DNA of 29,969 bases, from IMG/VR virus record IMGVR_UViG_3300032291_000986, positions 1 through 29,969 of that record; one strand, given 5' to 3'. Origin of the DNA: a virus. Shown here piece after piece: positions 27,871 through 29,969 of the stretch. A program made the translations under genes and the position numbers. Within the stretch, counting starts at the first letter, position 1; each line of letters opens with the position of its first letter. Below the pieces are notes generated by a model, which ran no database searches, was not told where the DNA came from, and saw only the letters and a program-made list of their open reading frames with translations.

Positions 27871-28329
27871 TTAATTTGAATTTCTTTTAATTGAACTACC
27901 AAAATAATAACCGAATATTGAAATTACAATACCCTCGGTGATACCGATAAGGTGAATCCACACCTCTTTGTTATCTGCCGGTATTGTGAGGTAAACGATT
28001 GCATAAATCATAAAACAAAATGAGGCTAAACCTACTAGCCCTGTAAGATAGAACAAGATATCAAATTTTTGTAATTTTGCTATCTCTACTTCTCTATTTC
28101 TTGCTGACTCTCTATCCTTTAGCATTATCTGCTCCATTTCAATCAGCTCTTTTGTTACAATCTCTTTATCTTCGTCAGTTAATTCATCAGAGAGATTTAT
28201 GATATTCTTTACGATACCTAAGCTCCCATTGCTCGGAAGGATGTCTCCTATAGTTTGAAGAATCTTTGGAGCTTTCTCCGAAAGAAACTTTCCTACCTTT
28301 GTATCTTTAAATTTTTTTCTTTCTTTCAT
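27871..28329 (-). CDS. Holin-like membrane protein, 152 aa
   Basis: The N-terminal half is soluble and charged (KFKDTKVGKFLSEKAPKIL; acidic helix DELTDEDKEIVTKELIEMEQ). Two membrane segments follow: about residues 90-112 (FYLTGLVGLASFCFMIYAIV) and 122-146 (LIGITEGIVISIFGYYFGSS). The ending FGYYFGSS plus a basic tail is characteristic of the holin group called '3TM' type, which opens the inner membrane for lysis. It neighbours a lysin and a second small membrane protein. The frame opens at an ATG at 28359 inside the upstream gene, but ATG at 28329, one base after that gene's stop (TAACATG), gives the natural start MKERKKFKDTKVG. Confidence 0.7.
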   Translation of the reverse strand: MKERKKFKDTKVGKFLSEKAPKILQTIGDILPSNGSLGIVKNIINLSDELTDEDKEIVTKELIEMEQIMLKDRESARNREVEIAKLQKFDILFYLTGLVGLASFCFMIYAIVYLTIPADNKEVWIHLIGITEGIVISIFGYYFGSSIKRNSN

Positions 28330-28330
28330 G

Positions 28331-28642
28331 TTAGTGTGCTTTTTCCATTCTTTCAACAAGATTCAGAAGCTTTTTCATCATTGATGTATTGTTTTCAATC
28401 ACATGATTATTAGATGCAACTGTCTCCATTAGTTTTGTACGATCTTCTGACAGGTATTCTTCAAGTTTATTTTCAAGCTCTTGAATTCTATTCTCATTCT
28501 TCTTGTGCCATACAAAAAATTGCTTACCCATGAAGTAAATTAAGGCAATCATAAGAATGGCGAAAATGCCAAGAACCCCATAATTTGCGAGTGTATTTAA
28601 GTACGAGGGGAGTGGTTCAACTTGAAGAAATAGTACGTTCAT
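28331..28642 (-). CDS. Membrane protein with N-terminal TM and coiled coil (lysis accessory), 103 aa
   Basis: One transmembrane helix at about residues 22-42 (GVLGIFAILMIALIYFMG) is followed by a basic patch (WHKKNENR) and a coiled coil (IQELENKLEEYL; MMKKLLNLVERMEKAH). This layout is shared by BhlA/UviB-type holin-like proteins and some inner-membrane spanins. There is no Cys lipobox. The frame can begin at a TTG at 28663, but ATG at 28642, four bases after the upstream stop, is preferred. It sits between a lysin cassette and a two-TM holin-like gene, so a lysis role is likely. Confidence 0.65.
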   Translation of the reverse strand: MNVLFLQVEPLPSYLNTLANYGVLGIFAILMIALIYFMGKQFFVWHKKNENRIQELENKLEEYLSEDRTKLMETVASNNHVIENNTSMMKKLLNLVERMEKAH

Positions 28643-28646
28643 GGTT

Positions 28647-28841
28647 TTATAATTTATATTCAATAATGGGGAGATATTTTACCCACCAACAATCGATATT
28701 GGTATTGTCATATATCTGATGCAAAGGTAATATCCAAACTCCATTTACATCTAATATTGGGGTAAATAATTTTTCATCTTCATAATGTTTTTTAGACAAA
28801 AAGGTTTTTTCCTCTTCATCTAGCAAACCGCCTAATGCCAT
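28647..28841 (-). CDS. Small unknown protein, paralog of the 74-aa gene, 64 aa
   Basis: An ungapped comparison with the 74-residue protein at 29464-29688 gives 24 identities in 64 positions, including GLL, a Y-x-x-x-x-x-F-x-PI-x-D stretch, WI, WVK and LP-x-IEY. No domain is recognised and there is no membrane segment. Conserved aromatic residues suggest a compact fold. It overlaps the lysin stop by 10 bases, so it is translationally coupled to it. It ends before the membrane proteins, placing it within the lysis group. Confidence 0.7.
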   Translation of the reverse strand: MALGGLLDEEEKTFLSKKHYEDEKLFTPILDVNGVWILPLHQIYDNTNIDCWWVKYLPIIEYKL

Positions 28842-29464
28842 AGTTCTATAAGTGTGAAGTTAATAAATTGATTTGGATTGAATATTTTAATAGCTTCAAA
28901 CCATCTAGCATCAGGAACAACCATACAACCTGCACTCCAATTGTCAACAAATGAGCCTGCCCCGGCACGATGAAAGTTTATTCCAAAATGTCCTTTAGTT
29001 TTAATTGCAGTATCTAGCTTTCTATCCTTGTTTCCATCTCTGTAAATCTCAATTGCACCTGCTTGGAAAAAGTAAGGGGCACCTAGCCAGAGTGATTTCC
29101 AATTTGCTGATATAGTAAATTTATGTGATGCAATTACTTGCTGCTCACAAGCCACTGCTGCTCCTGTAATGCCACCGTGAGTTATCGGATTGAAGATATA
29201 AAAATCTCCAGGAGTAGTAGAGCATGGCATAATCATATCAGCATTTCTGTTCGAAAACCGAACAACATAGTCTGAGAACTTATTATCAAAGGATTGGTCT
29301 GTGCGAATCCATACAAGGTCATTTACAGGCTTTACCCATCCACGTTTGTCCATCTCTGCATCGATAAACTGCTTTGTTCCTGTAAGGCTAAGAGGCCCGA
29401 TTATTCCATCGATGTTACCTGAATAGTAACCTTTGTCTTTGAGTATCTGTTGAAATTGTTTCAT
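28832..29464 (-). CDS. Lysis protein: peptidoglycan-binding plus L,D-transpeptidase (YkuD-like) fold, 210 aa
   Basis: Residues 1-35 (FQQILKDKGYYSGNIDGIIG, then PLSLTGTKQF) match a peptidoglycan-binding domain of the PG_binding_1 type. Residues about 80-210 carry a YkuD-like catalytic order: strand AIEIYRDGN, then GHFGINFHRAG and NWSAGCMVV, giving His165, Ser177 and Cys180 of the H...S-x-G-C signature. L,D-transpeptidases act on meso-DAP peptide cross-links in the periplasm. In phages this fold is probably used as a cell-wall-degrading lysin. There is no signal peptide, so export would rely on the holin. The ATG overlaps the previous stop (TAATG). Fold and catalytic residues are seen in the sequence; hydrolytic rather than transpeptidase action is inferred. 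Confidence 0.75.
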   Translation of the reverse strand: MKQFQQILKDKGYYSGNIDGIIGPLSLTGTKQFIDAEMDKRGWVKPVNDLVWIRTDQSFDNKFSDYVVRFSNRNADMIMPCSTTPGDFYIFNPITHGGITGAAVACEQQVIASHKFTISANWKSLWLGAPYFFQAGAIEIYRDGNKDRKLDTAIKTKGHFGINFHRAGAGSFVDNWSAGCMVVPDARWFEAIKIFNPNQFINFTLIELWH

Positions 29465-29688
29465 TATTCTACTGGAGGAAATGGGTCTATTGGTTTAGGA
29501 ATATATTCAATCAAAGGTAGTGTTTTTACCCATTGAAATAAAGGATTTACACATTGGTCAATCTCTTCAACTGAAATTATCCAATTGTCATCAATGTCAG
29601 TTATGGGATTAAAAAAACTATCCTCATCGTACATTTGACCGACAAGCTCATTCTTTTGTGATTCTGTTAATAGTCCTACGTATGTCAT
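29464..29688 (-). CDS. Small unknown protein, paralog of the 64-aa gene, 74 aa
   Basis: Starts MTYVGLLTESQKNEL and contains FFNPITDIDDNWIISVEEI and WVKTLPLIEY, all positions shared or similar in the paralog on the other side of the lysin. It has an additional Pro-rich tail (PKPIDPFPPVE). The ATG overlaps the stop of the LamG-like gene (ATGA) and its stop overlaps the lysin ATG (TAATG). Function unknown; it may belong to the virion, as an assembly or attachment factor for the fibre upstream, or to the lysis group. Confidence 0.7.
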   Translation of the reverse strand: MTYVGLLTESQKNELVGQMYDEDSFFNPITDIDDNWIISVEEIDQCVNPLFQWVKTLPLIEYIPKPIDPFPPVE

Positions 29689-29969
29689 ATTTGTCTACCT
29701 AAAGTTGTGTTAAATGCCTGCACGGCTGTGTACAAATTATCTGCATCTGTATCCGTTAAGCCATCGCCCAATGACGCGAATGCGCATTGTTTTGTTGAAT
29801 AAAAAACAACTGAACCAGTTCTGTTAAAAGCACCTAAATAAACATTTGCAGTTGAAGGTGTTGTTGATGCTACACTACCTGTTACAAGTTTTGAATTATT
29901 ACGCCAACCATTTACAACTGTTGAACTAGTTCTATTACCAATATAAAAAGCTCTTGAATCAGTATCAGC
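29685..29969 (-). CDS. Fibre or structural protein with LamG-like C-terminus, partial (5' end missing)
   Basis: An open frame enters from the right edge of the window and ends at a TGA (29685-29687) that overlaps the next ATG, leaving 94 visible residues. The pattern SRAFYIGNRTSS, then ANVYLGAFN, CAFASLGDGLTDTDADNLYT and AVQAFNTTLGRQ looks like the end of a concanavalin-like/laminin-G beta sandwich, a common phage appendage domain. The closing Leu-Gly-Arg-Gln-Ile is typical of this group as I remember it. The N-terminal part and full length are outside the window, so attachment and role are unknown. Confidence 0.7.
   Translation of the reverse strand, partial: ADTDSRAFYIGNRTSSTVVNGWRNNSKLVTGSVASTTPSTANVYLGAFNRTGSVVFYSTKQCAFASLGDGLTDTDADNLYTAVQAFNTTLGRQI

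Follow-up and report, generated by a model that had tools for sequence, protein, structure and literature searches.

Two small homologous proteins encoded on the minus strand of an environmental phage genome, here called UP (74 residues) and DN (64 residues), arose by gene duplication and keep two separate, conserved gene partnerships: UP nearly always comes right after a LamG-like fibre gene, and DN nearly always lies directly before a membrane/coiled-coil protein (TMCC) of the lysis cassette, to which it is fused in some phages, and DN is also present on contigs where searches detected no UP and no fibre. An even chance is given here to the reading that UP is a fibre companion and DN a duplicate recruited as a soluble partner of the holin-like protein of the lysis cassette; the binding, the assembly role, the regulation of a holin and the topology belonging to this reading are what we infer. 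A fibre companion is a known kind of system, and its copy in a lysis cassette is the unusual part. An orphan ORF pair thus becomes one family with two predicted partners, which should be useful to annotators.

The window, i.e. the whole stretch of virus DNA analysed (29,969 bases), carries the following genes of interest:

29685..29969, minus strand: C-terminal 94 residues of a LamG-like fibre, the gene running past the window end
29464..29688, minus strand: UP, 74 residues, putative fibre companion and paralogue of DN (ORF, BLASTP, neighbourhoods, AF2 model)
28832..29464, minus strand: lysin, 210 residues, weak PG_binding_1 N-terminus and YkuD-like C-terminus
28647..28841, minus strand: DN, 64 residues, lysis-side paralogue (ORF, BLASTP, neighbourhoods; model from a fused homologue)
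28331..28642 (ATG start), minus strand: TMCC1, one membrane segment and a predicted coiled coil, putative holin-like partner of DN
27871..28359, minus strand: TM162, hydrophobic segments near the C-terminus, cassette gene next to TMCC1

"LamG" is the label given to the fibre by the first-pass annotation, and no Pfam family confirms it among 15 relatives scanned; the fragment in the window matches by BLAST the 262-residue fibre of another locus (L010). The lysin matches PG_binding_1 (E 0.0037) and YkuD (E 0.17) in Pfam, both under the cut-off, and in PHROG phrog_3000 (E 4e-12) and the endolysin phrog_33083 (E 6e-6); the PHROG matches of TM162 are weak only. Coupling of all these genes by overlaps, as first annotated, holds for fibre/UP (4 nt), UP/lysin (1 nt) and lysin/DN (10 nt), but an overlap of DN with TMCC1 requires an alternative TTG start, open at 28663, and the starts of the TMCC1 relatives align at the ATG at 28642, which gives a 4-nt gap. 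Further products encoded in the window are a terminase large subunit (phrog_6681), a portal protein (phrog_6547), a number of virion structural proteins and a co-chaperonin of the GroES type (phrog_13932); the hosts of this virus are probably Bacteroidetes bacteria.

The first-pass annotation described the two small proteins as paralogues aligning without gaps, one on each side of the lysin, that arose by duplication rather than chance, and this is borne out. BLASTP aligns UP and DN gaplessly with 24 of 62 aligned residues identical (E 5e-14, a single comparison), the 74-mer searched against the whole record finds only itself and the 64-mer (E 2e-10), and profiles of 28 UP and 26 DN relatives align with each other at a probability of 99.3 (E 3.7e-20). 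The likeness is far beyond chance, and common descent by duplication accounts for it. Placement of the two in unrelated families would have spoken against this; neither could be assigned to a library family, and it is their own profiles that align. Pfam searches up to E 1 find nothing for UP and DN of the window, NCBIfam and PHROG yield noise only, 28 UP members searched up to E 0.01 hit no PHROG, and tblastn of INPHARED with UP, DN and a relative from locus L117 gave no match; nor is the pair described in the titles and opening lines of abstracts among the papers listed by full-text literature searches. In a tree DN and the fused forms make one clade (support 100/100), and with a midpoint root UP groups with its diverged relatives, against DN. 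UP would be the older form, judging only by its wider spread.

What was duplicated appears to be one small alpha/beta domain of ~65 residues. The AF2 model of UP (pLDDT 89, pTM 0.67) runs strand, helix, strand, strand, two helices, strand and a proline-rich tail. The model of a fused DN-TMCC2 protein is poor overall (pLDDT 70, pTM 0.33), with a long helix after the DN part, but that part itself scores 76-83 in 10-residue blocks and has the same order of secondary structure as UP. By fold the UP model finds nothing in the PDB at E <= 0.001, and a single VIA row, eEF2 at Z 2.2, is unrelated; in BFVD, at E <= 0.001, it finds two uncharacterised 70-residue phage proteins, A0A6J5MZP8 (E 2.8e-8) and A0A6J7WIL2 (E 9.7e-6), followed by two further matches near E 0.002-0.004 without annotated function. 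By sequence the UP profile has no PDB match up to E 10, and the DN profile has four coiled-coil matches, all of them on the fused rows. Residues D31-E42 of UP resemble a calcium loop; an EF-hand was rejected because the third loop position is not conserved and because in the model residue 40, next to S39, already opens a helix, for which S39 and E42 would be a capping pair.

Gene neighbourhoods were compared over loci fetched by UP (77), by DN (42), by a further DN search (80 of 109 matches), from MAG contigs (2) and by diverged UP (38). Near-copies, i.e. hits with identical C-terminal 40 residues, the same intervening genes and the same next gene, were counted once, and L001/L002 (the window itself) and L114/L115 (no ORF hit) were dropped; this left 92 distinct neighbourhoods from the UP, DN and MAG searches, of which contig-end cases (5 UP, 2 DN) were set aside, as were 3 TMCC and 1 LamG cases in the reverse tests. 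The diverged-UP set was held apart and keeps near-copies, its 36 testable loci representing 20 different UP sequences after L221 was set aside at a contig end and L226 gave no hit. Gene orders include fibre-UP-lysin-DN-TMCC as in the window, fibre-UP-DN-TMCC, fibre-UP alone and DN without UP; loci with a single copy, looked for as the first-pass annotation had proposed, are common for UP and for DN alike.

In 67 of the 74 neighbourhoods that could be tested, UP comes immediately after a LamG-like fibre; 5 more UP are at contig ends. Among the other seven, an endonuclease-like ORF stands between the two in five and an 80-residue ORF in one (L060), and in L181 an endonuclease-like ORF precedes UP on a contig that begins before a fibre could appear. 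Of the 36 testable loci with diverged UP relatives, counted with their near-copies, 34 have the relative behind the fibre by profile, and of the other two L206 follows it by its ORF and L225 lies behind a 275-residue ORF that is negative by profile. Starting from the fibre, UP is directly behind in 65 of 68 testable distinct genes (best 80 of 583 matches), a test that leans towards linkage, like that led by TMCC, its queries having been drawn from loci with UP or DN; the exceptions have one ORF (L355, L361) or two (L353) and then UP. LamG fibres without UP occur in L113 (fibre, lysin, DN) and L187 (fibre, DN). The gene after UP, by comparison, varies (n=79): DN in 29, TM162b in 16, lysin in 15, unnamed in 15 and others in 4. 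Among the phages sampled, the UP-fibre partnership thus has good support, and a small protein family of environmental phages, unclassified until now, gains a predicted partner.

Conservation of UP over 28 rows is 0.62-0.84 in 10-residue blocks up to residue 70 and 0.41 beyond, and residues 141-220 of the fibre are variable (0.16-0.27, 15 rows), its ends being better conserved; a companion working with many fibres would be expected to contact those ends. Start-coupled to the fibre gene, UP would most likely bind the conserved parts of the fibre and not the hypervariable middle, and may help the fibre to fold, to trimerise or to be capped. By analogy UP is most likely an assembly factor or else a small fixed part of the fibre. 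A purely structural role, as a subunit of the fibre tip or base and not a chaperone, is doubtful; it would suit a highly conserved protein found near-constantly behind the fibre, but position and conservation do not separate such a piece from an assembly factor, and the titles and abstract beginnings seen in the literature search showed no virion proteomics.

Extra ORFs lie directly before UP in nine loci, in eight of which the fibre is seen on the far side:

L057:2822-3427 and L061:4381-4992, ORF with a NUMOD3 motif (Pfam)
L066:4393-4989, L072:4402-4998 and L073:4402-4998, one ORF each
L181:91-840, L355:2399-3163 and L361:3290-4048, one ORF each
L353:3777-4533, two ORFs

The ORFs of L066, L072 and L073 we take to be HNH-endonuclease-like, those of L066 and L072 having no Pfam family, and the remaining ones without NUMOD3 resemble homing endonucleases in their motifs. 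The 3' end of the fibre gene thus seems to be a repeated insertion site.

A fibre of another type has its own small protein. In L105 (943-1786) an Lcl_C-like fibre (E 1.3e-5, below cut-off) has a 77-residue protein in the place of UP, and the small protein is therefore exchanged together with the fibre, which is how fibre companions behave; a relation of the 77-mer to UP was rejected (best E 230). The same fibre type, assigned by eye, and its 77-residue companion also occur at L154, L171, L176, L179 and L253.

Chaperones encoded behind fibres have roles in folding or capping, according to three reports (PMC7289586, PMC9608196, PMC10579305). Gp27 of Alteromonas phage V22, directly downstream of the fibre, is required for a functional fibre, and the chaperones compared here, Mu Tfa, T4 gp38, V22 gp27 and Pam3 gp25, are proteins of ~20-22 kDa (PMC7289586); gp25 of cyanophage Pam3 is 162 residues long and combines an N-terminal domain of ~55 residues that binds the fibre with a helical domain for trimerisation (PMC9608196); and distant Alteromonas phages share fibre and cognate chaperone as a module, while the A5 fibre is functional without its chaperone (PMC10579305). 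UP resembles these four chaperones in the position of its gene directly behind the fibre, which is the rule for UP and not for DN, and UP and the 77-residue protein each keep to a fibre type as does the Alteromonas module. UP differs in its size (~65-86 residues), under half of theirs, in having no helical domain of the Pam3 kind and in showing no detectable sequence match to them by Pfam or PHROG.

A distant cultured relative makes the UP-fibre prediction testable. Flavobacterium phage elemoE (Elemovirus) has a fibre-like gp40 that matches the fibre profile (E 4e-8), and one base after it the 66-residue gp39, a weak candidate relative of UP that leans on its position (UP-profile match E 0.003), both E values being for an assumed database of 40,000 sequences. 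Beyond gp39 come three short hydrophobic-looking proteins and a gene annotated as D-alanyl-D-alanine carboxypeptidase, with GroES and TerL at a greater distance, in an arrangement similar to that of the window. The elemo group differs in having one small paralogue and a lysin from another family, sited after the membrane genes; no DN was found among 13 neighbouring elemoE proteins tested, and tblastn with DN of the window gave no match in that collection (INPHARED).

DN keeps different company. In the 92 neighbourhoods, among the matches listed, a TMCC lies directly after DN in 50 of 57 and is fused to it in 6, so that in 56 of 57 the lysis-cassette membrane/coiled-coil protein either follows DN or contains it; a seventh fusion comes from the diverged-UP set (L224). 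The exception, L047 (510-776), has DN followed by a 26-residue stretch that by eye corresponds to the end of TMCC, and likely is a natural deletion in which the membrane part of TMCC is gone. When the fusions are cut by hand, the start methionine of an unfused relative (L063) aligns with their internal methionine. The unfused kind (TMCC1) and the fused kind (TMCC2) show no detectable relation with the shallow alignments used, and DN is thus linked to two kinds of membrane/coiled-coil protein. Starting from TMCC1, DN is directly before it in 37 of 45 testable loci (best 80 of 101 matches), 6 of the 45 have UP but no DN, and 2 have neither; TMCC1 therefore does not need DN there. The DN-TMCC partnership, too, has good support among the phages sampled.

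On four DN contigs of 66-89 kb, which may be fragments or incomplete, searches for UP (E <= 0.001) and for a LamG fibre (E <= 1e-5) found nothing, and DN thus seems not to depend on the LamG fibre. These contigs, with the seven fused ORFs, weigh against both copies serving the fibre, with DN a second fibre factor and TMCC no lysis protein; this is unlikely, even though the UP and fused-DN models share their order of secondary structure and DN is the sole copy beside a LamG fibre in L113 and L187. That both copies serve lysis, UP being a lysis regulator placed by chance at the border of fibre and lysis genes, is likewise unlikely. Many loci do continue from UP with a lysin, a TMCC or a TM162b followed by a Phage_holin_4_1 gene, but UP stays with the fibre and not with the lysis genes, being followed elsewhere by a protein of the type IX secretion type (L043), a GroEL-like protein (L060) or unnamed proteins, and in L222 it is set between two fibre genes. 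Of the two functions first proposed for the pair, partner of lysis and assembly factor for the fibre, each thus fits one copy only, lysis DN and the fibre UP.

The lysin between the copies is another matter. Flanking of the lysin had been taken as a meaningful arrangement, and this did not stand: DN is immediately preceded by UP in 29 of 57 cases and by a YkuD-like lysin in 20 of 57 (92 neighbourhoods, among the matches listed), and lysin between UP and DN is thus one state of a shuffled cassette. Loci of the fibre-UP-DN-TMCC order continue with the same lysin, with an Amidase_3 lysin (E 1.7e-19) or with other genes, and in the remaining loci the lysin follows the membrane protein or is replaced by one of the Amidase_3 kind. 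The lysin sits between the copies because lysin genes move within the cassette, and the flanking is incidental. The lysin of the window has 24 named relatives in the phage collection, mostly in crAss-like and Bacteroides phages, at 26-33% identity and nearly all labelled hypothetical.

Holin-like proteins of the BhlA/UviB type are short and have a single membrane segment at the N-terminus, the C-terminal part being helical. TMCC is also short, sits in a lysis cassette and has one membrane segment, at residues 29-45 of the 110-residue TTG-start form of TMCC1, and a C-terminal part predicted to be helical. It differs in being usually preceded by a DN domain or, for TMCC2, fused to one. Holin_BhlA itself was rejected for TMCC1 (Pfam E 0.12, 12.8 bits against a cut-off of 22.6), and its weak PHROG matches are to phrog_462, phrog_1625 and the holin phrog_1296. 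The better of these are named lipoprotein or bacteriocin-related, phrog_1625 reaching at best E 1e-4, in 6 of 10 members and with no curated cut-off, and the holin PHROG appears in 2 of 10; together with the place in the cassette, these suggest a holin-like protein. The same names could point to DN and TMCC as a membrane unit of superinfection exclusion or host takeover, which is decidedly improbable given that TMCC is surrounded in the cassette by lysins and further membrane genes and that PADLOC matches neither DN nor TMCC1, and the fused DN-TMCC2 only weakly, to PbeC (E 0.001) over the helical part.

As a partner in lysis, DN would have become attached to the membrane/coiled-coil protein of the next gene, most likely as a cytosolic cap or regulator of the holin-like TMCC, the two forming a single polypeptide in some phages. 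The fusion has two hydrophobic stretches ahead of the coil, so that both of its ends could face the cytosol, a topology that the sequence allows. Very improbable is the further proposal that a fibre companion was copied onto a holin-like protein so as to read the state of fibre assembly at the membrane, where DN would still recognise the fibre or UP, free or used-up companion would time the lysis protein and the natural DN-membrane fusions would be one-piece sensors tying virion completion to lysis; it is disfavoured because of the DN contigs in which no fibre was found, unless DN reads another fibre. A fibre-side gene that was duplicated and fused within a lysis cassette is nevertheless a concrete case for the question of a link between assembly and lysis.

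Two of the genes behind UP deserve mention. The ORF directly behind UP in L043 (5219-7423) encodes 734 residues with a CHU_C type IX secretion signal and SprB and PKD-like domains, a surface protein of the Bacteroidetes type on a contig listed as viral. Shortly behind UP in L060 (5040-6885) lies a GroEL-like gene (Cpn60, E 8e-59), followed by an 87-residue ORF that looks like GroES, for which the GroES genes of the window and of elemoE may be compared.
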